Source of the DNA: Psychrobacillus lasiicapitis
Lineage (GTDB): Bacteria; Bacillota; Bacilli; Bacillales_A; Planococcaceae
NCBI RefSeq assembly: GCF_006861795.1
Contig: NZ_VDGH01000001.1
Location: forward strand, 62,001-126,000
Direction of reading: 5' to 3'
Length of the DNA: 64,000 nucleotides
Position 1 is the stretch's first letter. The number at the start of each line of letters is the position of its first letter. Shown here in pieces: positions 3,545 through 63,929 of this stretch. The position numbers and the translations under genes are program-made. A model generated the notes under the pieces. It had not been told where the DNA came from. It saw only the letters and a list, made by a program, of their open reading frames with translations, and made no database searches.

Positions 3545-4342
3545 ATGACAGCTTATGGGGAAGATTTATTCAAAGGGACGGCTCATTTTTACTCACGTTT
3601 TAGACCAATGTATCCAGCTTCATTAATCAGGTTTTTAATTGAAAGGTTTTCTTTGGATGGTGGAGGCCGAATGCTGGATTTAGGTTGTGGAACTGGCCAA
3701 TTAGCGTTCAGATTCACTGACTGGTTTGAAGAGATAGTTGGAATTGATACGGAGCCTGAAATGATTGATGAAGCAATACGCCTAAGTAAAGAATTTAGAG
3801 CAGAAAATCTGGAATGGTTTACTGGCGATCTCGATACATATATTGAGAAATCGGATAAAACTTTTCGATTGGTAACAATTGCAAAGGCTTTTCATTGGAT
3901 GGATAGAGTAAAGGTCCTCGAAACTTTAGACGAAATGATTATTCCTGGCGGTGGGGTAGCGATTATTGATAATTACTCTCCAAATAAGGAGCAGCTGCCA
4001 TGGCAAAAGAAAGTGGATGAGGTAGTGAAGCGTTGGTATGGAAATGAAAGAAGAGCAGGCAACACGACATATGCGCATCCGACCATTAGCCATCAAACGA
4101 TTATTTCAAATTCCAAATTTGACTTAGAAATTCACGATATGCCAACTTCCGAACAGGTATGGACAGTGGATTCTATTATCGGTAATATATATTCTACTTC
4201 TTATGGTACTAAACGATTTTTAGGTGAAAATGTTCGGTCATTTGAACAGCAGTTAAAAGAAGAATTATTGGCGATTGATGATACTGGAATTTATAAAAAA
4301 CAAATTAATGTATCGGTCAAGCTCGCTGTAAAAAGCAAATAA
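3545..4342 (+). CDS. class I SAM-dependent methyltransferase, 265 aa
   Basis: MLDLGCGTG (about residues 39-47) is the SAM-binding glycine loop, GIDTEPEM the following acidic strand, and AKAFHWMD the motif-IV region typical of Methyltransf_11/25 proteins. The N-terminus (FSRFRPMYP-like) resembles Bacillus methyltransferases of unknown acceptor. Start ATG 3545 follows an AGAGGAAG site. Confidence 0.85.
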   Translation: MTAYGEDLFKGTAHFYSRFRPMYPASLIRFLIERFSLDGGGRMLDLGCGTGQLAFRFTDWFEEIVGIDTEPEMIDEAIRLSKEFRAENLEWFTGDLDTYIEKSDKTFRLVTIAKAFHWMDRVKVLETLDEMIIPGGGVAIIDNYSPNKEQLPWQKKVDEVVKRWYGNERRAGNTTYAHPTISHQTIISNSKFDLEIHDMPTSEQVWTVDSIIGNIYSTSYGTKRFLGENVRSFEQQLKEELLAIDDTGIYKKQINVSVKLAVKSK

Positions 4343-51185: not shown

Positions 51186-54100
51186 ATGGAACAAACAACG
51201 ATAATTACATCAAAATTGACCCCGCCTGTTACATCTTCCTTTTACATGAGAAGATCATCCCTTATCAAGAAATTAAAAATGAATACGAATAGCAAATTAT
51301 CTATTTTACATAGTGGAGCTGGTTTTGGTAAAAGCTCTGCATTAGCTCAAGTGTATGCCGATTCAAAAGAATCATATTCTTGGTATTCGATATCGGAGGA
51401 AGACGATAATATTCATCCTTTTCTTCGGTATCTAGTTCAAAGTATTCGCAAAGTTATCCCGAAGTTCGGTGCAAGTTTAATGGAGCGAGATTTGCTTTCT
51501 ATGTATCCAAAAGAAGAGGAATTGACGCAGTGGTATTCATTATTTAGTAATGAACTCGCAATGATTGAGCAACCCTTTACTATTGTCCTAGATGACTTTC
51601 ATCTCATTGATCATGTCTTTCATATAAATTATATAATCGAAAAAATAATTGAGTTTCTTCCAGCTCATATTCATCTTGTAGTCGCTTCTAGAACTCGCCC
51701 TAAGTGGTCAATCCTATTAAAACTCAAACTAAAAGGCCAGTTAGTGGAAATCACGGAAAAGGACTTTATGTTTACAGAGGAAGAAATACAAGTATTTTTG
51801 GAAGATTATTTTGAAAAAACGATTACGGAGGAAGAAGCAGCGGAGATTATGAGACTGACAGAAGGTTGGGCGATCGCCATTCATTTAATCGCAATGCAGC
51901 TTGCGGAGACAGACAAACATATCAACGAGTTAGTGGACCCCACTTTAAAAGATTTGTTTTCTTATCTGTCTGAAGAAGTATTTCTATTGATGAGTGAAGA
52001 GGATAAACAATCGTTGTTGAACTTTAGCATATTTCCGATATTCACGGAAAAAGAAATTCGGGCATTTTTTGGTGAAAATGCAGCAAAAGATCTAGAGAGG
52101 TTATCACGTAGTCATGCATTTATTCAAACCTTAAGTAACCCAGGATCTTATCGCTTTCACGCATTGTTTCAGCAATTTTTAGAAACGAAATGGCTGCAAA
52201 AAGATTATACTTTGTATTACGAAACCCATAAAAGAGCTGCTTATTATTTTAGCGAACAGCAAAATATTATTCAATCCATTTATCATGCAGTAAAAGCAAA
52301 TGATGATTATTTTCTCGGAACAATAATCACTCAGTTTGCCGAATTCATCATTAAAGATGGGCAATTTGATTGGTTTTTAGATTTGCTAAAAGAGCATCTT
52401 TCGGATAAAAGACGAGAAAAGTTCTATGAGCTATTCTTTTATGAAGGGGAATGCCACCGTTATAGGGCATTTTATGAGAAAGCTAGAAAAGCCTATGAGA
52501 CTTGCTTAGCTTTTGCGATGGAGAACAAAAATGCCCTCTATTTAAGCCGGGCAAATGTAGGGCTGGCCCATATCTATTTAGATACGATTCAACCTGCTCT
52601 TGCAAAGCCTTATTTAGAGGAAGCGGTGAAGTGGGCAGAAAACAGCCCAGAAATGGAGAGTCACGAAAGAATTGTATTAAAACGTTTGTTAGCTGAAAAT
52701 CTAGTGAACTTAGGTAAGGCAAATGAGGCAAGTGATTGGGTTCGACAAGAGGAATTGGATGCCTCGATACTTAAAGAAGGGAACTTAGATGCACGCATCC
52801 TCCTTAGAACCGGGTTACTGAATGAAGCCGAGGTACTATTAAGAAATAGAATTAATGATGAGATCAACTTACCGGATTCACATAGAGAAACGGAAGTACT
52901 TCTTTCCTTTATATACTCTTTAACAGGAAATATAGAAGAGGCAAAACGTTCTGCTATGAAAGGGATTGATACAGGTATCCGTGAAAAATCTAGCTTTGTC
53001 GAGGCAGTCGGTTGGATACGACGAGGACATGCCGAAATATTAGACAATCCCTTCGACTTAGAAACCCCCGAGAATTATTATTTAAGAGCAGTTCAAGGTA
53101 TGGGAGAATTGAATGTATCTAGAGGAAAAGCAGAGCCTTTTATGGGTCTGGCTATTTTAAAGTCGAGGCAAGGATTGTTTCAAGAAGCCCTCTCTTACGG
53201 GGAAAGTGGCCTAGTAGAAACAAATAAAGGGAATGACTATTGGCTATCTGCTTATATTTTGGTTTGTTTATCCATTGTTTATATAGAAAATGACATGATG
53301 GAGAAAGCTTTACAGGCTATTTGGGATGCGAATCATCTTTTCAAAAGTGGTGGGGACGTATACGGCGAAATGATTTCTGATTATTGGTTAATGTTTATTC
53401 ATGATAAATTAGAGGATCAGGATAAATTTGTTTTACATGCTGAAAGGTTTGCATTTATTTGTGTACAATATGAATTTTCTTTTTTCCTACTTAAAAAGAC
53501 TATATTTGGTCCCGCAGATCTACAATTGCATTATCCGTTATTACAAAAAGCAAAATTATTAAAACCAGATTCTGCTCCAGTCCATACATTAGCAAATTTG
53601 TTAAAAATAAATACAAGCACTAATTATCCAGGATATCAGCTAACGCTACAACTATTCGGTCCTTTTACGCTTTTTATGGGAATCGAAGAAATTAGCGAGC
53701 GAAAATGGCAACGCGATAAATCAAAGGAATTGCTTTCTTATTTGTATTTGAACAGAAGTCGATTCGTCCCAAAAGAAGAATTGATGCATACGATTTGGGG
53801 AGAAGGGGACGAAAAATCGTTAAATCGTGATTTTAAAGTAGTATTAAATGCCCTATTAAAAGTGATAGAACCGAATCGTTTAGCGAGGGAAGAATCCTTT
53901 TTTATCATTCGAAAGCAAGCGATGTATCGAATAAACCCGGAAGCAGCTGTAACGAGTGATTTAGAATCATTTCAACATTTAACGGAAAAAGGGTTGGAGG
54001 AAAAGGACCCGATACTGTCAGCGGATTACTTACAAAAAGCAGTCAAATTGTATAAAGGTGAATTATTAGAGGACAAATCTAGAATCGATTGGATATCACA

Positions 54101-54395
54101 TGACCGGGAAAAAAATCAACAACAATATTTACTCGCATTAGAAAGGCTCGCTCAAACGTATACGAGATTGAGAGAATTCGAAAAATCCATCTACTGGGCG
54201 GAGAAATTAATACGAGTGGATCCCACATGGGAAGAAGCTTATCGATTATTGATGTTTGCCTACTATCAGCTTCAAAATCGAACACAAGCGGTGAAATGGT
54301 ATGAAAAATGTATTTCCGTACTCTATACTGAGCTCAAAGTAGAGCCGATGCATACGACAATTCAAATGTATGAAATGATTACAAGCTATGGTTAA
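51186..54395 (+). CDS. STAND-ATPase/TPR/BTAD transcriptional regulator, 1069 aa
   Basis: The N-terminus has a MalT-like P-loop ATPase: Walker A HSGAGFGKSS (Lys49), Walker B TIVLDDFHLID, and the sensor segment EGWAIAIHLIAMQLAE near 225-240. A long central TPR-like superhelix follows (about 350-800). The C-terminus (about 815-1069) is an OmpR/SARP-type DNA-binding domain plus BTAD: LQLFGPFTLFMGIEE, KSKELLSYLYLNRSRFVPKEELMHTIWGE, DWISHDREKNQQQYLLALERLA, VDPTWEEAYRLLMFAYY. Such proteins are ATP-dependent inducible activators. ATG 51186 follows GGAGGTAGAGG. The operon downstream is the likely target. Confidence 0.88.
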   Translation: MEQTTIITSKLTPPVTSSFYMRRSSLIKKLKMNTNSKLSILHSGAGFGKSSALAQVYADSKESYSWYSISEEDDNIHPFLRYLVQSIRKVIPKFGASLMERDLLSMYPKEEELTQWYSLFSNELAMIEQPFTIVLDDFHLIDHVFHINYIIEKIIEFLPAHIHLVVASRTRPKWSILLKLKLKGQLVEITEKDFMFTEEEIQVFLEDYFEKTITEEEAAEIMRLTEGWAIAIHLIAMQLAETDKHINELVDPTLKDLFSYLSEEVFLLMSEEDKQSLLNFSIFPIFTEKEIRAFFGENAAKDLERLSRSHAFIQTLSNPGSYRFHALFQQFLETKWLQKDYTLYYETHKRAAYYFSEQQNIIQSIYHAVKANDDYFLGTIITQFAEFIIKDGQFDWFLDLLKEHLSDKRREKFYELFFYEGECHRYRAFYEKARKAYETCLAFAMENKNALYLSRANVGLAHIYLDTIQPALAKPYLEEAVKWAENSPEMESHERIVLKRLLAENLVNLGKANEASDWVRQEELDASILKEGNLDARILLRTGLLNEAEVLLRNRINDEINLPDSHRETEVLLSFIYSLTGNIEEAKRSAMKGIDTGIREKSSFVEAVGWIRRGHAEILDNPFDLETPENYYLRAVQGMGELNVSRGKAEPFMGLAILKSRQGLFQEALSYGESGLVETNKGNDYWLSAYILVCLSIVYIENDMMEKALQAIWDANHLFKSGGDVYGEMISDYWLMFIHDKLEDQDKFVLHAERFAFICVQYEFSFFLLKKTIFGPADLQLHYPLLQKAKLLKPDSAPVHTLANLLKINTSTNYPGYQLTLQLFGPFTLFMGIEEISERKWQRDKSKELLSYLYLNRSRFVPKEELMHTIWGEGDEKSLNRDFKVVLNALLKVIEPNRLAREESFFIIRKQAMYRINPEAAVTSDLESFQHLTEKGLEEKDPILSADYLQKAVKLYKGELLEDKSRIDWISHDREKNQQQYLLALERLAQTYTRLREFEKSIYWAEKLIRVDPTWEEAYRLLMFAYYQLQNRTQAVKWYEKCISVLYTELKVEPMHTTIQMYEMITSYG

Positions 54396-54428
54396 ACGCA
54401 GAAGAGAAAAAGATCTTCTGCGTTTTTT
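54394..54428 (+). terminator. terminator of the regulator gene
   Basis: AAACGCAGAAGA pairs with TCTTCTGCGTTT, followed by TTT. Confidence 0.88.
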
Positions 54429-54481
54429 GATTTCCTTAAAATATTTATAAAACATTTGCTCCTGCGCGAGCTCGTCGCAAA

Positions 54482-54562
54482 AGAGTTACAAAAACAAAGC
54501 TTTTGTAACTCTTTTGTAACTCCTTTTCAGTACTATAAACGAGAAGCATGATAACGCTTACA
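54482..54562 (+). promoter_or_regulatory. operon control region: 11-bp direct repeats, -10 box and cre-like site
   Basis: TTTTGTAACTC occurs twice in direct repeat with exact 11-bp period (54501-54511 and 54512-54522). A degenerate third unit starts at 54524, and an inverted copy (AGAGTTACAAAA, 54482-54493) forms a hairpin with the first. TATAAA (54534-54539) follows as -10. ATGATAACGCTTACA (54548-54562) fits the CcpA cre consensus with one mismatch at the predicted start point. SARP/BTAD activators bind heptamer repeats at 11-bp period just upstream of a -10. Confidence 0.6.
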
Positions 54563-54585
54563 AAAAAGCTTGAAGGGGGATTTAC

Positions 54586-55848
54586 ATGACAAAAAAATGG
54601 GGCCTATTATTATTGTTCGTATTCGTCTTAATTTTCAGTGCAGCTTGTAGTGATGATACAAGTTCCACGGGTACAACAAAAGATGAAACAGACGAAGGAA
54701 CAACAACACCAGTATCTAGTGAAGTGACGGAAGAAGGCGGCACAATCAAAATTGGTGTCCTTGCATCATTAACGGGTGCACTGGAGTCTTATGGGAAGCA
54801 AACGAAAAATGGTTTTGAGTTAGGACTTGAATATGCTACGGACGGAACGCTGGAAGTAGCAGGCAAGAAAATTGAAGTTGTTTACGAAGATACAGAAACG
54901 AAGCCAGAAGTTGCTGTACAAAAAGCTACTAAGCTACTAGAAGAAGATGAAGTAGATTTTCTAGTCGGATCCTCTAGTTCTGGTGATACGTTAGCGGTGC
55001 TTCCTCTAGCAGAAGAATATGAAAAGATTATGATTGTTGAACCAGCAGTTGCTGATAGTATTACAGGTTCCGAGTTTAACCCGTATATTTTCCGTACTGC
55101 GCGTAACTCTTCACAGGATGCAGTTGCAGGTGCTGCGGCAATTGCTAAACCAGGAGTGAAAATTGCTACATTTGCACCAGATTACTCTTTCGGATGGGAT
55201 GGAGTAGCAGCATTTAAAGCAGCTGCTGAAAAATTAGGTGCAGAAATTGTGTTAGAAGAATATGCTGATCCCGCAGCTACTGATTTTACTTCTAATCTAC
55301 AAAAGATTATCCAAGAAAAACCGGATTACTTATTTGTTGTGTGGGCAGGAGCGAACTCACCATGGAACCAAATTGCTGACTTAAAAATGCAAGAAAAAGG
55401 GATTAAAATTTCAACTGGAGCACCTGATATTCCAGCATTATCTATAATGGAACCATTAGTCGGCATGGAAGGATTCTCTGTTTACTATCATACGCTTCCT
55501 GACAATCCGATCAATGATTGGTTAGTGGAAGAGCATAAAAAACGTTTTAACGGAGAAGTGCCGGATTTATTCACTCCAGGTGGAATGTCTGCTGCTATCT
55601 CAATCGTGGAAGCTTTGAAAAAATCAGAAGGAAATGCAGATGGAACGGAACTGATCAAAATAATGGAAGGTATGTCATTTGAGACTCCAAAAGGAACGAT
55701 GACTTTCCGTCCAGAAGACCATCAAGCATTACAGCCACTTTATTCTATTAAGCTAGAAACACAAGAAGGCGTAGACTATCCGGTACCAGTATTAATAAGA
55801 GAGTTGTCACCGGAAGAAACGGAGCCACCGATTTTAAACAATAAATAA
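54586..55848 (+). CDS. ABC importer solute-binding lipoprotein (branched-chain type)
   Basis: Signal peptide with lipobox FSAAC (Cys21), a low-complexity Thr/Glu linker, then a Peripla_BP_6 domain: IKIGVLASLTGALESYGKQTKNGFELGLEYA in order, AVQKATKLLEEDEVDFLVGSSSSGDTLAV, and GGMSAAISIVEALKKSEGN. This family binds branched-chain amino acids, amides, urea or aromatic/aliphatic acids; the ligand cannot be read. First gene of the operon. ATG 54586 follows GAAGGGGGA. Confidence 0.92.
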   Translation: MTKKWGLLLLFVFVLIFSAACSDDTSSTGTTKDETDEGTTTPVSSEVTEEGGTIKIGVLASLTGALESYGKQTKNGFELGLEYATDGTLEVAGKKIEVVYEDTETKPEVAVQKATKLLEEDEVDFLVGSSSSGDTLAVLPLAEEYEKIMIVEPAVADSITGSEFNPYIFRTARNSSQDAVAGAAAIAKPGVKIATFAPDYSFGWDGVAAFKAAAEKLGAEIVLEEYADPAATDFTSNLQKIIQEKPDYLFVVWAGANSPWNQIADLKMQEKGIKISTGAPDIPALSIMEPLVGMEGFSVYYHTLPDNPINDWLVEEHKKRFNGEVPDLFTPGGMSAAISIVEALKKSEGNADGTELIKIMEGMSFETPKGTMTFRPEDHQALQPLYSIKLETQEGVDYPVPVLIRELSPEETEPPILNNK

Positions 55849-55880
55849 GACCGAGTAGTGATAGGCTAAGCAATTAGCTC

Positions 55881-55928
55881 TATCGCTCTCCATGTAATAG
55901 AACAAGTTCTACTACATGGAAAGCGATA
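55881..55928 (+). other. strong hairpin between the solute-binder and ATPase genes
   Basis: TATCGCTCTCCATGTAATAGAAC pairs with GTTCTACTACATGGAAAGCGATA in pieces: 23 bases per arm, three mismatches, two-base loop (arms 55881-55903 and 55906-55928). There is no T-run, so it is more likely a processing/stabilising element that keeps binding-protein mRNA abundant than a full terminator. Confidence 0.65.
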
Positions 55929-55948
55929 GAAGAAAGGGGTATTTGAAA

Positions 55949-56716
55949 TTGGAACCAATACTAAAAACAGAAAATCTAACGATTAAATTTGGTGGGCAAA
56001 CTGCTGTAGATCATGTGAATTTTACGATGCCAGCAAAGCATTTTAAATCGATTATTGGACCGAATGGAGCTGGAAAAACAACTTTTTTCAACTTAATCAG
56101 TGGTGAGTTAAAGCCTACAGAAGGAGATGTCTTTTTTAGAGGGGAATCGATGGCGAAGTACTCGTCCGTGGAACGAACAAGAAAAGGACTTGGGCGTTCG
56201 TTTCAAATTACCAATGTGTTTCCCAATCTAACGGTAATTGAAAATGTCCGACTTGCAGTCCAATCGAAAGAAAATATCCGTTATCAAATGTTTCGTCATT
56301 TTACTGCCTATAAAGATTTGCAAATACAAGCAGAAAAATTACTAGAAGTAGTATTACTTTCGAACAAAGCGAACGCAATAGCCAATCAATTATCTCATGG
56401 AGAGAAACGAAAACTAGAAATTGCGATGTTACTTGCGCTTGATACAGAAGTTTTGCTATTAGATGAACCTACCGCTGGAATGTCATTAGAAGAAGTCCCC
56501 GCTATTCTGGACGTAATTAAACAAATTAAACAAACCGGAGACAAAACGATTTTGTTAATCGAGCATAAGATGGATATGATCATGGACCTATCGGATTCTA
56601 TTATGGTGCTTTTTAATGGTAGATTACTAGCAGACGGAACACCAAAAGAAATCATGGACAATGAAACTGTTCAAAATGCTTATTTAGGGGGGCTATACGA
56701 TGAGCATCTTGCTTAA
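55949..56716 (+). CDS. branched-chain-type ABC importer ATPase 1 (LivG-like)
   Basis: TTG 55949 lies nine bases after AAAGGGG; the ATG at 55916 is within the upstream hairpin and lacks a site, so 55949 is preferred. Walker A is GPNGAGKTTFF, the signature is LSHGEKRKLEIA, and Walker B is VLLLDEPTAGMS. The subsequent IEHKMDMIMDLSD switch and the about 255-residue length are LivG-like. It hydrolyses ATP to drive import with the partner ATPase. Its 3' end overlaps the next gene by 17 bases. Confidence 0.9.
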   Translation: MEPILKTENLTIKFGGQTAVDHVNFTMPAKHFKSIIGPNGAGKTTFFNLISGELKPTEGDVFFRGESMAKYSSVERTRKGLGRSFQITNVFPNLTVIENVRLAVQSKENIRYQMFRHFTAYKDLQIQAEKLLEVVLLSNKANAIANQLSHGEKRKLEIAMLLALDTEVLLLDEPTAGMSLEEVPAILDVIKQIKQTGDKTILLIEHKMDMIMDLSDSIMVLFNGRLLADGTPKEIMDNETVQNAYLGGLYDEHLA

Positions 56717-57407
56717 AGTGGATAATATTCATACGCATATTGGCCAGTATCACATTTTACAAGGTGTTTCCTTTGAAGCAAAAGAGGGCGAGGTTAGTGT
56801 TTTACTTGGGAGGAATGGAGCTGGAAAAACAACTACGTTAAAGACAATCATGGGTTTGACTCCAGCAACTTCTGGAACGGTGACTTTTTTGAATGAAGGA
56901 ATCACCAAAAATGCGACACATCACATTGCTTCGAATGGGATCGGATATGTACCGGAGGATCAAGGAATCTTCGGGGCACTAACGGTGGAGGAAAACCTAA
57001 AAGTGGCGATGAGAAAAGAAAACGATGCTGCGAGGGAAAGACAAGAGTATGTGCTAAAGCTTTTTCCTGACTTAAAAAAGTACTGGAAAAAAGAAGGTGG
57101 CCATTTATCTGGAGGTCAAAAGCAAATGCTATCGATGGCAAGGGCTTTTATTAATGATAGCAAGTTGCTGCTAATAGATGAGCCTTCCAAAGGGCTTGCT
57201 CCCGTTGTGATTGAAAAAGTAATGGAAGCAATTATCGAAATGAAAAAACAAACGACTATTATTTTAGTAGAACAAAACTTCATTATGGCCAGTAGGATAG
57301 GGGATACATACACATTAATCGATGATGGGGAAACCGTTCAATCTGGTCAAATGAGTGAATTGATTCAAAATGAAGAGCTGAAACGACAATATTTAGGAAT
57401 TGGGTAA
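56700..57407 (+). CDS. branched-chain-type ABC importer ATPase 2 (LivF-like)
   Basis: 235 residues with Walker A GRNGAGKTTTL, Q-loop GYVPEDQGIF, signature LSGGQKQMLSMARA, and Walker B LLLIDEPSKGLAP, the LivF-type pattern. Translationally coupled to the LivG-like gene by overlap. Confidence 0.92.
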   Translation: MSILLKVDNIHTHIGQYHILQGVSFEAKEGEVSVLLGRNGAGKTTTLKTIMGLTPATSGTVTFLNEGITKNATHHIASNGIGYVPEDQGIFGALTVEENLKVAMRKENDAARERQEYVLKLFPDLKKYWKKEGGHLSGGQKQMLSMARAFINDSKLLLIDEPSKGLAPVVIEKVMEAIIEMKKQTTIILVEQNFIMASRIGDTYTLIDDGETVQSGQMSELIQNEELKRQYLGIG

Positions 57408-57419
57408 GGAGGGGAAACA

Positions 57420-58280
57420 ATGGAATTAATCATCAATTTATTAATAAACGGATTAGCGACAGGCATGCTTATCTTTCTTCTAGCAGCCGGTCTCACATTA
57501 ATATTTGGATTAATGGATGTTCTAAATTTTGCACATGGTGGTCTGTTTGCCTGGGGAGCTTTTTCAGGCGTTTGGTTTTATGGGCTAACCAATAGCTTTA
57601 CTGTCGCAATTATTGGAGCTATTTTGACGGGAATTGTGCTTGGGTTTATTACAGAAAAGCTAATTATTACACCGGTTTACGGCAATCATATCCAACAAAT
57701 TTTAATAACGCTCGGATTTATGATTGTGTTATCCGAAATGCTTAAAGTCGTGTTTGGACCAAACCAAATCGCAGCAAAGACACCCCCATTGTTATCTGGC
57801 AGTTGGGAAATCGGGGATGTCATTATTATTAAGTATCGCTTGTTTATCATCCTAGTAGGCATTTTAGTCTTTGGTATCTTCCAGTTCATCTTAAAACGCA
57901 CAAAAATCGGATTAATCGTACGGGCAGGTGTGATGAATAAAGAAATGGTGCAAGCGCTCGGCATTAATATTAAACAAGTATTTTTGTATGTGTTTATGGT
58001 AGGAGCAGCTCTTGCTGCGCTCGGAGGAGTACTGATGGCTCCGTATTCGGGCGTGATTTATGCAGAAATGGGTATGGAATTCGCGATATTAGCGTTTATC
58101 GTAGTCGTGATCGGCGGGATGGGAAGCTTTCCAGGTTCTCTTCTGGCAGCTATACTGGTCGGTCTTGCAGGCAGTTTTATGGCGTATTATGTTCCTGCAC
58201 TATCACTTGCGGTTAATATGATGCTTATGGCAATTGTATTAATTTTCCGTCCGCAAGGTTTGTTCACAGCGAAAGGATGA
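57420..58280 (+). CDS. branched-chain-type ABC permease 1 (LivH-like)
   Basis: About eight hydrophobic helices. The family blocks LTLIFGLMDVLNFAHGGLFAWGAF and AALGGVLMAPYSGVIYAEMG, MEFAILAFIVVVIGGMGSFPGSLLAAILVG in order, are LivH. ATG 57420 follows AAGGAGGGGAA. Confidence 0.92.
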   Translation: MELIINLLINGLATGMLIFLLAAGLTLIFGLMDVLNFAHGGLFAWGAFSGVWFYGLTNSFTVAIIGAILTGIVLGFITEKLIITPVYGNHIQQILITLGFMIVLSEMLKVVFGPNQIAAKTPPLLSGSWEIGDVIIIKYRLFIILVGILVFGIFQFILKRTKIGLIVRAGVMNKEMVQALGINIKQVFLYVFMVGAALAALGGVLMAPYSGVIYAEMGMEFAILAFIVVVIGGMGSFPGSLLAAILVGLAGSFMAYYVPALSLAVNMMLMAIVLIFRPQGLFTAKG

Positions 58281-58286
58281 TGCGAG

Positions 58287-59294
58287 ATGAAGACTAAATT
58301 CCAAGTTAATAATGGTATCTTACTTGTCCTAGTGGCAGCCCTCGCCGTATTCCCTTTTGTTTCCGATTCACGAACATGGACTATTTTGTTGACGCAAATA
58401 TTCATCTTCTCTATTTTAGCGATGAGCTATGATATTTTGCTAGGGTATACTGGAATCGTATCATTTGGGCATGCGATGTTTTTTGGAATGGGTGCTTATG
58501 CAACCGCAATTATGCTCGATCATTTTGAACCAACCTTAAGTGTCTTTTTTCTATCCATCGCAGTCGGAATGGTCATTTCAGGGGTTATCAGTTTTTTAGT
58601 TGGCCTATTAACACTCCGTCTGAAGAGTCATTTCTTTGCTATGCTGACGCTAGCGGTATCCGGATTATTTTTAGTGCTTGCGGAGAAGTGGAGAACGCTC
58701 ACACATGGAAATGATGGATTCACGTTTCGTGCACCTGAATTCTTTAAAGATCGTGTGATGTTCTATTTACTCGTACTTGCTTGTTTGGTGCTTGTATATT
58801 TCCTATTGCGACGGTTTGTTTCTTCCCCATTAGGAAGAGTGTTGATCGCTGTACGTGAAAATGAACAACGGACAAAATCATTAGGATTCCAGACTTTGCA
58901 CTACAAGGTTATTGCATCTATGGTTGCAGGGATTGTCGCAAGTTTAGCGGGTTCTCTATATGCTATTTCCTTACGTTTTGTCAATACGAGTGTGCTTACG
59001 ATGGATATTACGCTAGATGCACTACTTATGACGATTATTGGAGGAGTTGGTACATTAATCGGACCGATTATTGGTGCGGGTGTGATTGAACTTGCACAAC
59101 ATTACTTATCTGGTCTTGCTAAAGAATATCCTATATTTGAAAGATGGATCATTTTCTTTGGAATCATTTATATATTGGCGGTTATCTTTTTTCCAAGAGG
59201 GATTGTTGGAACGATTCGTCATGCGTTTTGGAAGCGTAAAACCAATGAACCGAAAGTCAACGTCGCTCCTAAACGAAAGGAGCTACTAAAATGA
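58287..59294 (+). CDS. branched-chain-type ABC permease 2 (LivM-like)
   Basis: About nine helices with SYDILLGYTGIVSFGHAMFFGMGAY, RLKSHFFAMLTLAVSGLF and TLDALLMTIIGGVGTLIGPIIGA, the LivM blocks; a basic C-terminal tail follows. It starts seven bases after the LivH-like gene and overlaps the thiolase-fold gene by four bases (ATGA-type coupling). Confidence 0.92.
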   Translation: MKTKFQVNNGILLVLVAALAVFPFVSDSRTWTILLTQIFIFSILAMSYDILLGYTGIVSFGHAMFFGMGAYATAIMLDHFEPTLSVFFLSIAVGMVISGVISFLVGLLTLRLKSHFFAMLTLAVSGLFLVLAEKWRTLTHGNDGFTFRAPEFFKDRVMFYLLVLACLVLVYFLLRRFVSSPLGRVLIAVRENEQRTKSLGFQTLHYKVIASMVAGIVASLAGSLYAISLRFVNTSVLTMDITLDALLMTIIGGVGTLIGPIIGAGVIELAQHYLSGLAKEYPIFERWIIFFGIIYILAVIFFPRGIVGTIRHAFWKRKTNEPKVNVAPKRKELLK

Positions 59295-60298
59295 CGATAG
59301 GGATTGTTAGTACTGGCGTTTACATACCAGACAACGTAATGACAGCTGAAGAAATAGCTACGCTTTCCAAGTTGCCGCTCCATGTAGTAAAAGACAAAAT
59401 GGGAATCACACAAAAAGCTATTCCCGGCCCAAACGATCATACAGTAGCAATGGGGATTCGAGCAGCGGAAAAAGCACTGCAAAAAGGAAATATTGACCCA
59501 AAAACGATTGATTTAATCATCTATATAGGAGAAGAGCACAAGGAATATCCTCTCTGGACTGCTGCTATCAAGATGCAAGAGGAACTCGGGGCTTATCATG
59601 CTTGGGGATTTGATGTAGCGCTTCGCTGCGGAACAACGATTATGGCGATGAAGGTTGCGAAAAGTTTAATGGAGGCGGACGCGTCGATCAACACCGTTTT
59701 ATTGGCTGGTGGTTATCGTAATAGTGATTTTATCGATTACACGAATGAACGAACCCGATTCATGTTTAACTTGGGAGCAGGCGGAGCCGCCATGATACTG
59801 AAAAAAGATCATACCGAAAATATTATTCTAGAGACGGATATGATGACGGATGGATCTTTTTCTGAGGATGTTGTTGTACCAGTCGGCGGTACGAAAGAGC
59901 CCTTGACTACGGATCATTTAGAAAAAGGATTTTATCGCCTAGATGTATTAGACCCAGAAGGCATGAAGGCTAGGCTAGAACAGAAATCCATGCAGAACTT
60001 TTTAAAGGTTATTCGCCATGCATTAATGAAAAGTGGTTATACCGAGCAAGACATTGATTATTTGGCTATTCTCCATATGAAAAAATCGGCACATGATTTT
60101 GTCTTGCAGGAGCTTGGTTTAACAAGTGAACAAACAACTTATTTAAGCGATTATGGTCATATTGGGCAAATGGATCAGATTATATCCCTGGAACTCGCAC
60201 AAAAAGAAGGGAAATTGAAAGACGGCGATTTAGCTGTTTTAGTCAGTGCTGGAATAGGGTATGCATGGGGTGCAGTAGCTGTAAAATGGGGAAGTTAA
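59291..60298 (+). CDS. KAS III-like thiolase-fold enzyme with Cys-His-His site
   Basis: 335 residues of the FabH/KAS III fold. GIVSTGVYIPDNVMTAEEI opens it. The nucleophile is Cys113 (DVALRCGTT), the first His is His262 (AILHMKKS), and the place of the FabH Asn (YGNTS) is taken by His290 (YGHIGQMDQI). FabH condenses acyl-CoA with malonyl-ACP; this variant is unlikely to be the housekeeping enzyme. A Claisen-type condensation or cleavage of acyl-CoA in the operon's pathway is inferred. Confidence 0.85.
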   Translation: MTIGIVSTGVYIPDNVMTAEEIATLSKLPLHVVKDKMGITQKAIPGPNDHTVAMGIRAAEKALQKGNIDPKTIDLIIYIGEEHKEYPLWTAAIKMQEELGAYHAWGFDVALRCGTTIMAMKVAKSLMEADASINTVLLAGGYRNSDFIDYTNERTRFMFNLGAGGAAMILKKDHTENIILETDMMTDGSFSEDVVVPVGGTKEPLTTDHLEKGFYRLDVLDPEGMKARLEQKSMQNFLKVIRHALMKSGYTEQDIDYLAILHMKKSAHDFVLQELGLTSEQTTYLSDYGHIGQMDQIISLELAQKEGKLKDGDLAVLVSAGIGYAWGAVAVKWGS

Positions 60299-60312
60299 AA
60301 GGAGTGGAGAAA

Positions 60313-61212
60313 ATGAGTTTATCGAAAGTTCAATTGCAAAACGGAGAACAGCTCGCGTATCGTGAACGACCAGGTGGAGAAGAAGTGATTGTACTAGTCC
60401 ACGGGAATATGACTTCATCGAAGCATTGGGATGTGCTAATCGACAAATTAGACGCGAAATATAAAGTATACGCAATCGATTTACGCGGTTTTGGAGAATC
60501 TACATATCATACGCGTATAAAAGGAATAAAAGATTTTTCGGACGATTTAAAAGAAGTGATCGATGCATTACAATTAAAACATTTTAACTTAATAGGCTGG
60601 TCTACTGGTGGAGCGATTTGTATGCAGTTCGCCGTCGATTATCCAGGGTATTGTGAAAAACTAATACTGCTAGCTTCCGCGTCCACGAGGGGATATCCAT
60701 TTTACGCGACAAATTTAGATGGGACACCTAATCTAGCAAATAGATTTCAAACAATCGAGGAAATCGAAAATGATCCAGCAAAAACGATACCGATGCAAGG
60801 CCTGTATGACATGAAAAATAAAGCAGGATTAAGAGCCGTTTGGAATGCTGCAATTTATACACATAACCAACCAAAAGAGGAGGATTACGACGCTTATCTG
60901 GATGATATGCTAACGCAACGAAATTTAGCAGATGTCTATCATGCGTTAAATACATTCAATATCAGTTCAGTAGATAATCAAGCAGCAAAAGGGACCAATC
61001 AAGCAAAGGATATTACAATTCCTGTCCTCATATTAAGAGGGGATCGTGATTTTGTGGTGACAGAGGAAATGACACAGGAAATTGTCACTGACTTAGGGGA
61101 GAATGCCACCTATATCCCACTTACTAATTGTGGCCATTCTCCATTGATCGACGATTTGGAGCAGTTAACTAACCGAATCGAAAATTTCATTTCAAAGGAG
61201 AAGGAACAATGA
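60313..61212 (+). CDS. alpha/beta hydrolase, 299 aa
   Basis: ATG 60313 follows AAAAGGAGTGGAG. The fold markers are VLVHGNMTSSKHWD (oxyanion loop), DLRGFGEST, nucleophile elbow GWSTGG (Ser97), acidic residue in RGDRDFVV, and His in NCGHSPLIDD. This pattern suits an esterase, lactonase or C-C hydrolase. It sits between the thiolase-fold enzyme and the reductase and overlaps the latter by four bases. Confidence 0.87.
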   Translation: MSLSKVQLQNGEQLAYRERPGGEEVIVLVHGNMTSSKHWDVLIDKLDAKYKVYAIDLRGFGESTYHTRIKGIKDFSDDLKEVIDALQLKHFNLIGWSTGGAICMQFAVDYPGYCEKLILLASASTRGYPFYATNLDGTPNLANRFQTIEEIENDPAKTIPMQGLYDMKNKAGLRAVWNAAIYTHNQPKEEDYDAYLDDMLTQRNLADVYHALNTFNISSVDNQAAKGTNQAKDITIPVLILRGDRDFVVTEEMTQEIVTDLGENATYIPLTNCGHSPLIDDLEQLTNRIENFISKEKEQ

Positions 61213-61949
61213 GATTACAAGACAAGGTTGCCATTATTACGGGAGGAGCTAACGGAATAGGTTCGGCTGCGGCTCTTCGCTTTGCAGAAGAAGGCGCAAA
61301 AGTGGTGTTAGCAGACTTTGACGCTAATGCAGGAGCAGAAAAAGAGAATGCACTAAAAGAGCTAGGCTATGATGCGAAGTTTATTCAAGTAGATGTAACG
61401 AATCGGGAAAGTGTGGATTCTCTTGTTTCGCAAACGATAGAACATTTTGGAGAAATTCATATTTTAGTCAATAATGCAGGGATTACAAAAGATGCTATGC
61501 TGACTAAAATGGCGGTAGAAGATTTTTCACGTGTTTTAGACGTTAACTTAACAGGGGTTTTTCATTGCACACAAGCAGTAGTACCTCATTTAATCGAACA
61601 AGGCTACGGGAAGATCATTAACACATCGTCCGTCAGTGGCGTTTACGGAAATGTTGGGCAAACCAATTACGCTGCCTCCAAAGCGGCAGTCATCGGCATG
61701 ACCAAAACATGGGCTAAAGAGCTAGGAAGAAAAGGTATAAATGTAAATGCTGTCTCCCCAGGGTTTACTGCAACAGCAATGGTAGCCAAAATGCCAGAAA
61801 AAATTATTGAACAGATGAAGGCTGGAGTTGCCTTGCAACGTCTTGGAGAGCCACAAGATATTGCAAATGCTTATCTATTTTTAGCTTCGGATGAAGCGAG
61901 TTATGTACATGGAACAGTTTTACAAGTAGACGGCGGAATTATGATGTAA
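61209..61949 (+). CDS. SDR oxidoreductase, FabG/acetoacetyl-CoA reductase-like
   Basis: 246 residues: cofactor loop TGGANGIGSA, NNAG motif, and catalytic Ser141, Tyr154, Lys158 (SSVSGVYGN, NYAASK). The end VHGTVLQVDGGIMM is typical of FabG/PhaB-type 3-ketoacyl reductases. LADFDAN after the second strand suggests NAD+ preference (Asp), which favours oxidation of a 3-hydroxyacyl or secondary alcohol in a catabolic pathway. Confidence 0.9.
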   Translation: MRLQDKVAIITGGANGIGSAAALRFAEEGAKVVLADFDANAGAEKENALKELGYDAKFIQVDVTNRESVDSLVSQTIEHFGEIHILVNNAGITKDAMLTKMAVEDFSRVLDVNLTGVFHCTQAVVPHLIEQGYGKIINTSSVSGVYGNVGQTNYAASKAAVIGMTKTWAKELGRKGINVNAVSPGFTATAMVAKMPEKIIEQMKAGVALQRLGEPQDIANAYLFLASDEASYVHGTVLQVDGGIMM

Positions 61950-61967
61950 CGAAAGGAGCGGTGCAAA

Positions 61968-63449
61968 GTGTATACAGAGCAAGCTTGGATATATAAACGT
62001 GCAGCATTGTCTCCAACCAAAATCGCGCTCATTGATAGTGGTACAGATGAACAATGGAGCTATCAAATGCTAACCGAGCATATATCCAAATGGATTCACT
62101 ATTTTCAACAAAAGAACTATCAAAAAGGCGATCGAGTCGTCGTTATTTCCCAAAACCGAATAGAGCTATTTGCGATTATTTTCGCATGTGGTGTGACGGG
62201 TCTACTCTATGTGCCGCTCAATTTTCGTTTAAGTAAAGTAGAACTAACGTATATTTTAGAGGATTGTCAACCAGTGCTCATTATTCATGATGAAGCCCAT
62301 CAAGTGTTGTGTGAGTCATTTATCCATGTGGAGCGTTTATTAGTGACAACTAAACTAGAAAGTGCAAGCTTTTTCTATCCTCCTGAGACTAACTGGAGCC
62401 CTTCCGATGGTTGGATCATCATCTATACAGGAGGGACGACAGGAAAGCCAAAAGGGGTAGAGCTATCTTTTGATGCAGTGAATTGGAATGCCATCAATAC
62501 CATTACAAGCTGGGGACTAAGCGACACCGATTGTACGCTGAATTATATGCCTATGTTTCACACCGGTGGGTTAAATGCTCTTTGTATTCCGATATTAATG
62601 TGCGGTGGAACTGTCGTTGTGGGAAGTCGCTTCCATGCAGAAGAAGCACTTAAAGCGTTAAATACCTATAAAACGACGCTGTCTTTATTTGTTCCAACTA
62701 TGTATCAAGCTATGCTCGACACGACCTATATTAAAACGGCGACTTTCCCAACTGTAAAAGTATTTTTATCCGGTGGTGCACCTTGTCCTCATACGATCTA
62801 TAAACAATTTGAAGACAAGGGCATTCTTTTTAAAGAAGGATATGGACTTACAGAAGCAGGACCTAATAACTTTTTTATTGATCCGCAGGATGCCCGTATA
62901 AAAAGAGGGTCAGTCGGAAAATGCATGTTGTTCAATGAAGTGAAAATTGTGAATGAAAATGGAAAGCTTTGTCGTACAAACGAAGTGGGAGAGCTATATA
63001 TTTTAGGGAAGCATGTATTTACGAAGTATTGGAATAACGAAGAAGAAACGAACCGTTCTTTTGTAGATGGTTGGTTAAAAACAGGTGATTTAGCAAAGGT
63101 CGATGAAGACGGATATTATTATATAGTTGGTAGAAAAAAAGAAATGATTATTTCGGGTGGGGAAAATGTGTATCCGCAAGAGGTGGAGCAGTGCCTCGTT
63201 TTACATCCAAATGTCCGTGAAGCAGCAGTTATCGGAGTAACAGATGAAAAATGGGGAGAATGTGTGACTGCATTTGTAAGTTGTCTTGCGGTAAATGATT
63301 CGTTCGAAAAGGAATTATTGCAAAGTTGTAAGCAGGTACTTGGCAGCTACAAAGTACCGAAAAAAATTTATATTTTAGATGAGCTACCTCGTACGGATGT
63401 TGGCAAAATTGATAAAAAAAGATTACAAGAATTAGCTGTAAAGATTTGA
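61968..63449 (+). CDS. AMP-forming acyl-CoA synthetase/ligase, 493 aa
   Basis: The adenylate-forming signatures are IIYTGGTTGKPKGVELS (P-loop), MFHTGGLNAL, GYGLTEAGPNN, LKTGDLAKVDEDGYYYIVGRKKEMIISGGENVYPQEVE in order, and the C-terminal lysine in DVGKIDKK. It activates a carboxylic acid to its acyl-CoA via an acyl-AMP. The length fits medium-chain or OSB-CoA-like ligases. As last gene of the operon it would activate the imported acid or the hydrolase product. Confidence 0.92.
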   Translation: MYTEQAWIYKRAALSPTKIALIDSGTDEQWSYQMLTEHISKWIHYFQQKNYQKGDRVVVISQNRIELFAIIFACGVTGLLYVPLNFRLSKVELTYILEDCQPVLIIHDEAHQVLCESFIHVERLLVTTKLESASFFYPPETNWSPSDGWIIIYTGGTTGKPKGVELSFDAVNWNAINTITSWGLSDTDCTLNYMPMFHTGGLNALCIPILMCGGTVVVGSRFHAEEALKALNTYKTTLSLFVPTMYQAMLDTTYIKTATFPTVKVFLSGGAPCPHTIYKQFEDKGILFKEGYGLTEAGPNNFFIDPQDARIKRGSVGKCMLFNEVKIVNENGKLCRTNEVGELYILGKHVFTKYWNNEEETNRSFVDGWLKTGDLAKVDEDGYYYIVGRKKEMIISGGENVYPQEVEQCLVLHPNVREAAVIGVTDEKWGECVTAFVSCLAVNDSFEKELLQSCKQVLGSYKVPKKIYILDELPRTDVGKIDKKRLQELAVKI

Positions 63450-63470
63450 TTTACAGCTTTTTATTTTGTC
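63434..63470 (+). terminator. operon terminator
   Basis: AGCTGTAAA (63434-63442) pairs with TTTACAGCT (63450-63458), followed by TTTTATTTTGTCTTTTT. The ligase stop codon lies in the loop. Confidence 0.8.
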
Positions 63471-63503: not shown

Positions 63504-63929
63504 ATGTTTATAAGTGAGAAAGAAATTGAAGTACGTTACGCAGAAACAGATCAAATGGGAGTAGTTTATCATGCAAACTATGTAATATGGCTAGAGATTG
63601 GTCGAACACAGCTTATTAAAGACTTAGGATTCTCTTATGCTGGACTCGAAAAGGATGGCTATCTATCCCCAGTTACAAACGTAAATATAAACTATAAATC
63701 TTCTGTAAGATACGGGGAGACAGTAGTTGTGAGAACATGGATTGAAAGTCACGGAAAGCTTCGGACTACATATGGATATGAAATTGTACACGAGGACGGG
63801 TCGGTTGCTTCTTCTGCTACATCGGAACATGTTGTGGTGAATAAGGACAATTTTCGACCGGTTTCCTTAAAAAAAGTTCATCCAGAATGGGATGCGAAAT
63901 ATACGGAAATCGCTAAGGTGATGGATTAA
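63504..63929 (+). CDS. yneP: acyl-CoA thioesterase (YbgC/4HBT family), YneP-like
   Basis: 141 residues of the hotdog fold: VRYAETDQMGVVYHANYVIWLEIGRTQLI holds the catalytic Asp in ETDQMG and the HANY segment. It hydrolyses acyl-CoA thioesters in the cytosol. Together with the next gene it matches Bacillus yneP-yneQ, found downstream of citB, so it belongs to the chromosomal backbone. A TATAAT at 63477-63482 may be its promoter -10. ATG 63504 follows GAGGTGACAGG. Confidence 0.9.
   Translation: MFISEKEIEVRYAETDQMGVVYHANYVIWLEIGRTQLIKDLGFSYAGLEKDGYLSPVTNVNINYKSSVRYGETVVVRTWIESHGKLRTTYGYEIVHEDGSVASSATSEHVVVNKDNFRPVSLKKVHPEWDAKYTEIAKVMD

Follow-up and report, generated by a model that had tools for sequence, protein, structure and literature searches.

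In a 64,000-nucleotide stretch of Psychrobacillus lasiicapitis (contig NZ_VDGH01000001.1; hereafter the window), ten genes encode a large STAND/TPR/BTAD regulator, a branched-chain-type ATP-binding cassette (ABC) importer and four enzymes: a β-ketoacyl-acyl carrier protein synthase (KAS) III-like protein, an alpha/beta hydrolase, a short-chain dehydrogenase/reductase (SDR) and an AMP-forming acyl-CoA ligase. We propose that this cluster is very probably a regulon for scavenging pieces of external polyhydroxybutyrate (PHB), a naturally occurring polyester that also serves as a bioplastic. At the level of sequence, the cluster is a conserved unit with orthologies, a shared operator and linkage to depolymerase genes in other lineages; the ligand, the transport, each reaction and the binding by the regulator are predictions. 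We read the cluster as directed at external PHB because both the operator and gene linkage tie it to secreted PHB depolymerases.

In the proposed scheme, the STAND/TPR part of the regulator would sense a pathway ligand, and the regulator would bind an 11-bp direct repeat and turn on both the importer operon and a secreted PHB depolymerase gene on another contig (C12). The depolymerase would degrade environmental PHB to 3-hydroxybutyrate (3HB) and short oligomers, which the lipoprotein and ABC importer would bring into the cell. There, the hydrolase would cleave oligomers to 3HB, the ligase would convert 3HB to 3HB-CoA, the NAD-linked SDR would oxidize this to acetoacetyl-CoA, which would then be split to acetyl-CoA by the KAS III-like enzyme or else by a thiolase. 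A sequence-only reading of the window had suggested a dedicated route for a hydroxy acid, with an importer and with enzymes for attaching CoA, oxidizing a hydroxyl group, breaking a C-C bond and hydrolysis; this logic fits the PHB depolymerase ortholog, the SDR resembling an NAD-bound FabG and the operator linkage described below.

Conservation of the gene unit and its operator

Searching a species-level genome collection with the KAS protein, we kept the best 80 of 191 relatives, whose genera include Psychrobacillus, Sporosarcina, Paenisporosarcina, Bhargavaea, Ureibacillus, Lysinibacillus, Viridibacillus, Neobacillus, Rossellomorea, Heyndrickxia and Ornithinibacillus. Full context, defined as at least 10 kb to the left and at least 8 kb to the right, was available for 68 loci, and 58 of them carry all ten genes in identical order. 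Absence of the set as a unit from related genomes, which would have told against the sequence-only reading, is rejected. Within the limits set, the other ten loci lacked a detectable SDR (four), regulator (three), both (two) or ligase (one). The gene unit is conserved far beyond chance.

The strict operator pattern, TGYAAC-N5-TGYAAC, occurs only once in the window, both strands counted, and lies 5' of the lipoprotein gene; in this genome the scan covered the window and the fetched stretches. Among 118 fetched loci, 27 were unscored because a lipoprotein gene with enough upstream DNA was not found, and the operator precedes the lipoprotein gene in 78 of the remaining 91. Mononucleotide shuffles gave a mean of 0.005 loci with the operator, and the background rate elsewhere in the fetched loci predicts 0.007 matches per region, these background matches themselves lying mostly 5' of cluster genes. 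Repeat periods from 6 to 17 other than 11 gave no matches in the importer promoters. The predicted -10 element also keeps its distance: TANNNT is present at 74 of the 76 sites examined, and at 72 of these the spacing is 10 bp. Among the 13 operator-negative loci, eight are importer clusters with a second KAS subfamily, in whose fetched stretch no BTAD gene was found (one of them, L146, has a TetR gene), three (L033, L034 and L074) have the operator outside the scanned stretch, and in two (L030 and L061) it was not found.

The 118 loci contain 145 operator matches, 80 before the lipoprotein gene and 50 before the ligase gene, which is often preceded by an operator of its own when separated from the SDR gene. 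The remainder precede hydrolase genes (three, two with an intervening KAS remnant), an SDR gene (one) and secreted esterase genes (two) or could not be assigned automatically (nine); locus maps place several of these nine before depolymerase, SDR or PhaZ7-like genes. A limit on the scavenging proposal lies in the sampling: cluster genes were the anchors from which the loci were retrieved, and the 145 matches are not a whole-genome regulon.

Several variations accompany this pattern. For 10 of the 80 loci, for example Neobacillus and related ones (L038, L050, L063-L065, L076 and L078), the search turned up no SDR gene in the cluster, and in nine of these ten, L080 being the exception, the ligase carries its own operator. 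A cre-like site within one mismatch of consensus, none exact, lies downstream of 18 of the 78 operators, compared with 1.1% of random stretches. One record named Arthrobacter beigongshangensis (L016) holds the cluster with 81% KAS identity, beside an aconitase gene 79% like that of the window, and is probably a misnamed or mixed assembly.

Depolymerases outside and inside the cell

The secreted-type depolymerase family NF050058 (cut-off 150 bits) connects the cluster to external PHB. Eight other genomes have such a gene within the cluster or immediately next to it: in Alkalihalobacterium elongatum (L055, 325 bits) it sits between the SDR and ligase genes; in one genus of another family it lies directly behind the importer operon in all four genomes searched; two sister-genus genomes (L141 and L193) have it beside the cluster; and in a genome of a further family (G354, locus L192) it is adjacent and convergent. 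In P. lasiicapitis itself the gene is on another contig (C12:328097-328951, 320.9-323.3 bits). The 586-residue protein has a signal-like N-terminus, as read by eye, its nearest solved protein is 8daj, named 'PHB depolymerase family' (E 1.2e-115), and the operator lies 64 bp before its gene. Counting G057 and G520, which have identical coordinates and scores, once, 12 of 20 secreted-depolymerase genes over the cut-off, the C12 gene included, are preceded by the strict operator and four more by a version with one mismatch in 12; the operator was also seen at the later-found gene of L141.

The family-wide distribution points the same way. We screened 247 genomes, all from a single family within the same order, and KAS, the hydrolase and PHB synthase exceeded their cut-offs in 90, 97 and 35 of them, respectively. 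NF050058 exceeded its cut-off in six, all among the 90 KAS-positive genomes and none among the 157 KAS-negative ones, and a seventh match, below cut-off, is likewise in a KAS-positive genome. The association (Fisher p 0.002) is overstated by its p value because five of the six depolymerase genomes belong to one genus.

The cluster hydrolase belongs to an intracellular depolymerase family. It scores 470.5 bits against NF050089, the intracellular short-chain-length polyhydroxyalkanoate (PHA) depolymerase model (cut-off 300), and aligns over almost its full length with the solved PHB depolymerase 8ynv (E 1.1e-84), with an intact GWSTG lipase box (GWSxG) and conserved Asp and His regions. We take 8ynv/8ynw to be the i-nPHAscl PhaZ of Bacillus thuringiensis. 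By these matches the hydrolase is orthologous to an intracellular PHB depolymerase that has already been described. The sequence-only reading had regarded the pathway as possibly undescribed; orthology to a described one was found for the hydrolase alone and not for the other enzymes.

This orthology raises the possibility that the cluster mobilizes the cell's own PHB granules and that the importer is incidental, all the more as deletion of phaZ in B. thuringiensis delays, without stopping, PHB loss (PMC4908106). The window's genome carries phaC. Furthermore, two loci with phaC in their genomes (L161 and L166) keep the regulator, operator, hydrolase, SDR and ligase next to one another, with the importer not in the fetched stretch (the L166 contig is 9.3 kb) and KAS present as a 38-residue stub or broken copy (L161 9173-9365; L166 3489-3877). 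However, the cluster hydrolase is unlinked from the cell's own PHB storage, because the KAS gene and phaC are independent across the 247 genomes: KAS occurs in 13 of 35 genomes with phaC and in 77 of 212 without it (odds ratio 1.04, p 1.0), with the hydrolase present in 90 of 90 KAS genomes. The operator was not found within the 20-kb surroundings of the genome's own bdhA and phaC, nor at any of the 15 loci with a stand-alone hydrolase, of which 11 belong to genomes with phaC. We reject granule mobilization as the main role on the independence of KAS from phaC, rating it very unlikely overall.

The hydrolase also occurs apart from KAS. Seven of the 247 genomes have the hydrolase with no KAS over cut-off, six of them with PHB synthase; in a 299-genome sample of the class, KAS and hydrolase co-occur in 18 genomes (three with synthase), the hydrolase occurs without KAS in 10 (seven with synthase) and KAS occurs without the hydrolase in 24. 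In a hydrolase tree of 58 rows, including 38 cluster loci picked by hand, the cluster hydrolases are not one clade: some stand-alone hydrolases are nested among them, with seven label changes, and five of the 11 stand-alone hydrolases in phaC genomes form an outer clade while the other six do not. An extra hydrolase in A. elongatum L055 (4239-5114, 35% identical to the cluster hydrolase) sits between regulator and importer and has its own operator at 4174.

Returning to the scavenging of external PHB, several findings weigh against it. No type-1 secreted depolymerase exceeded the cut-off in 84 of the 90 KAS genomes, or in 43 of 49 further named cluster genomes drawn from 50 of the 80 loci; these searches used the type-1 model NF050058, and the genomes without a match would have to live on others' products or use type 2 or PhaZ7 enzymes. 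NF050058 is itself a 'hypoth_equivalog' within a wider superfamily that includes feruloyl and acetylxylan esterases. The strict operator is missing before eight of the 20 secreted-depolymerase genes, before four of them even with one mismatch allowed, and the later-found genes at L192 and L193 have none. The PHB synthase screen used TIGR01836 as its sole model. A true BdhA (353 bits) is encoded elsewhere in the window's genome without the operator, and free 3HB therefore has another route. Finally, the role of KAS, with its unusual triad, is the weakest step of the PHB model: the protein lacks the FabH Asn, and it is the component that is a stub or broken in the two genomes keeping hydrolase, SDR and ligase.

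A rival reading is a more general route for another 3-hydroxy acid, a lactone or a polyester fragment, with PHB as only one source. In its favor, a type-1 secreted PHB depolymerase is missing from most cluster genomes, the best solved relatives of the ligase are named feruloyl-, succinylbenzoyl- and fatty-acyl-CoA synthetases, and a related cluster (L136) adds an acyl-CoA dehydrogenase and two MaoC hydratases to a ligase, SDR and KAS. Such a route is nevertheless rather unlikely in our judgment, as PHB depolymerases are repeatedly linked to the cluster and share its operator, and beyond these the operator was seen in front of a single kind of secreted enzyme, distantly PhaZ7-like. This protein comes from two loci (L150 and L160) whose fetched 20 kb contain no importer and where the operator precedes the ligase gene and a lipase-like gene; PhaZ7 is its sole NCBIfam match, and at 28.7 and 25.3 bits the scores are so far below the cut-off of 450 that it is only a lead.

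Gene layout and components of the cluster

The ten open reading frames (ORFs) lie on one strand at the places given by the sequence-only reading, and profile searches returned the families it had named (Table 1). Intergenic gaps from regulator to ligase are 190, 67, -17, 12, 6, -4, 11, -4 and 18 bp, with the hydrolase start taken at 60310 (the longest ORF would begin at 60265). The tight packing claimed earlier, with overlaps or gaps of 7-20 bases, holds from livG through the ligase gene, eight genes in all, and fails for the lipoprotein gene, 67 bp off. Nor is a single transcript of all ten genes supported: the regulator gene is probably not cotranscribed with the importer and enzyme genes, because the 190-bp gap contains a terminator-like hairpin, the predicted operator and a predicted -10 element. 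Terminator-like sites in the region number 11, close to the shuffle expectation of 9.5 (standard deviation 3.3), and hence the placement of the hairpin, not the number, carries this argument. Beyond the ligase gene, a YbgC/MenI-like thioesterase is encoded at 63504-63929; at L167 such a gene lies near an aconitase gene where the importer cluster is not present, and the thioesterase therefore probably belongs to the aconitase neighborhood.

Table 1. Features of the cluster and its predicted control sites, in window positions
Feature	Position	Strand	Basis or remark
STAND/TPR/BTAD regulator, 1069 aa	51186..54395	+	MalT-like NTPase part, TPR, weak winged helix, C-terminal BTAD
Terminator-like hairpin 3' of regulator gene	54394..54425	+	Hairpin scan
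Second hairpin, overlapping predicted operator	54477-54517		Hairpin scan
Predicted operator, TTGTAAC-4 bp-TTGTAAC, 11-bp direct repeat	54503..54520	+	Pattern scan
Predicted -10 element, TACTAT	54531..54536	+	10 bp past second heptamer
cre-like (catabolite repression) site	54549..54562	+	Weak; one mismatch to consensus
Substrate-binding lipoprotein	54586..55848	+	Peripla_BP_6
ABC ATPase, LivG type	55916..56716	+	
ABC ATPase, LivF type	56700..57407	+	
Permease, LivH type	57420..58280	+	
Permease, LivM type	58287..59294	+	
KAS III-like enzyme	59291..60298	+	Family NF005308 (PRK06840)
PhaZ-type alpha/beta hydrolase, intracellular short-chain-length PHA depolymerase	60310..61212	+	NF050089, 8ynv
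FabG-like SDR, predicted NAD-linked (R)-3-hydroxyacyl-CoA dehydrogenase	61209..61949	+	4nbu match
AMP-forming acyl-CoA ligase	61968..63449	+	AMP-binding family
Terminator-like hairpin with T tract, end of ligase gene	63434..63458	+	Hairpin scan

The regulator has its BTAD domain at residues 925-1065 of 1069 (75.7 bits, cut-off 22.1). Residues 6-526 match the MalT model at 213.8 bits, not reaching its cut-off of 537, and an OmpR-type winged helix (Trans_reg_C) is matched weakly, at 20.9 bits under a cut-off of 26.2. No LuxR-type helix-turn-helix (HTH) was reported at E 0.001. The presence of BTAD together with the architecture of the repeat suggests that this protein binds the TTGTAAC repeat.

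The importer, with a Peripla_BP_6 lipoprotein, two ATPases and two BPD_transp_2 permeases, has the make-up of the HAAT/LIV family. None of the five parts has an NCBIfam match at cut-off, for each of the two ATPases among the 25 matches listed. The nearest solved structures of the lipoprotein are 3n0x (E 5e-108) and 3nnd (E 2e-104), codes for which a literature text search returned unrelated papers only. Its ligand may be 3HB or its oligomers.

The KAS III-like protein matches NF005308 at 524 bits (cut-off 315). Alignment places its triad at Cys113-His262-His290, with His262 one column beside FabH His244 and His replacing FabH Asn274 in 108 of 108 aligned KAS sequences, that of the window included. 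Its structure, predicted with 40 of these 108 sequences, has a pLDDT of 92. As a first guess, the enzyme performs a thiolase-like cleavage; a literature search on thiolase activity in KAS III enzymes listed nothing on the NF005308 family. Five loci have an ORF of 390-403 residues after the SDR gene, and the one examined (L048) encodes a beta-ketothiolase. The gene set of L136 looks beta-oxidation-like, with KAS in the place where a thiolase would be expected.

By name, the four enzyme classes (KAS III-like, alpha/beta hydrolase, ligase and SDR) are those of OleABCD, and OleA is among the KAS fold matches (ranks 40-47), which would suggest condensation to a beta-lactone or olefin. We give this practically no credence, since KAS scores 46 bits against a cut-off of 285 on NF006720, which we take to be the model containing OleA, the hydrolase is a PHB depolymerase ortholog, the SDR is FabG-like and OleD is an extended SDR, and neither the importer nor the coregulated secreted depolymerase fits. 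The SDR itself was considered as BdhA and rejected (TIGR01963, 191.5 bits against a cut-off of 307); its best solved match is 4nbu (E 5.9e-104), an NAD-bound FabG (PMC5264612).

Clusters with the second KAS subfamily (40-42% identical, with Ser in the Cys112 column followed two residues later by a Cys) were set apart as a different pathway. In a sister cluster type (L133, L134, L138 and L142-L146), this subfamily occurs with a ligase, an ORF of 138-161 residues and the same importer type, with no operator and no BTAD gene in the stretch; the ORF is a MaoC hydratase in L146, the one examined, and L134 also has the main KAS. In L135 and L137, the subfamily accompanies a ligase, an ORF of 137-144 residues, an SDR and a large AMP-binding protein, and L135, the one examined, adds NHL-repeat, SbnA-like and FabD-like genes; these clusters look like a natural-product type.

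Implications and relation to known systems

The enzyme families described here are already known; what appears to be new is the proposed PHB-scavenging regulon as a unit, its importer and its operator, none of which we met in the titles, abstract starts and few passages of open PMC literature, where searches for a BTAD regulator or ABC importer with PHB in Bacillus also returned nothing on this cluster. If the proposal is true, it would supply the half of PHB biodegradation, uptake and control, that is still missing for a common group of soil bacteria, and would name a candidate ABC importer beside the one confirmed bacterial 3HB uptake system known to a 2023 paper (PMC10130141). The label 'intracellular PHB depolymerase' would not imply PHB storage, and the operator would serve as a handle for finding further polyester-degrading genes. 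The wider claim, to which we give even chances, is that Bacillota have a polyester-use regulon of their own. Its STAND activator, with a C-terminal BTAD and TTGTAAC 11-bp direct-repeat operators, would jointly control a secreted PHB depolymerase, an ABC importer that would be the first for 3HB oligomers, an intracellular oligomer hydrolase, a ligase, an SDR and a KAS III-fold protein with a Cys-His-His triad acting as a catabolic thiolase. On that reading, many enzymes so labeled in synthase-less genomes would be reread as uptake enzymes.

Several parts of the proposed regulon have described counterparts from which they depart. The hydrolase is orthologous to B. thuringiensis PhaZ, sharing its lipase box and Asp/His regions, but lies in an importer operon independent of phaC. 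The KAS protein has the fold of FabH (8vd9, TM 0.85/0.91), and the window's KAS subfamily keeps the catalytic Cys, but it lacks the Cys-His-Asn triad and scores 135 bits on the FabH model against a cut-off of 292. The C12 protein, the predicted secreted member of the regulon, is of a known enzyme kind, the type-1 PHB depolymerases (NF050058; 8daj), and its predicted control by the TTGTAAC operator is the new part. The predicted substrate of the importer is the same as that of hbtABC; hbtABC is a tripartite ATP-independent periplasmic (TRAP) system, whereas the cluster importer is a branched-chain-type ABC system in Bacillota. Compared with MalT/LAL regulators, the regulator does not reach the model cut-off and has no reported C-terminal LuxR-type HTH. 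It shares BTAD with Streptomyces antibiotic regulatory protein (SARP) activators such as AfsR, which recognize heptamers repeated directly with 4 bp in between, sited in several cases 8 bp upstream of the -10 element (PMC7040171), and its predicted operator likewise consists of heptamers with a 4-bp spacer close to the -10 element. Here, however, BTAD is C-terminal behind a MalT-like STAND part instead of forming an N-terminal HTH-BTAD, the distance to the -10 element is 10 bp and not 8, and the host belongs to the Bacillota. If the scavenging regulon is as proposed, it would add to the SARP-like activators one that lies outside the actinobacteria and controls catabolism.

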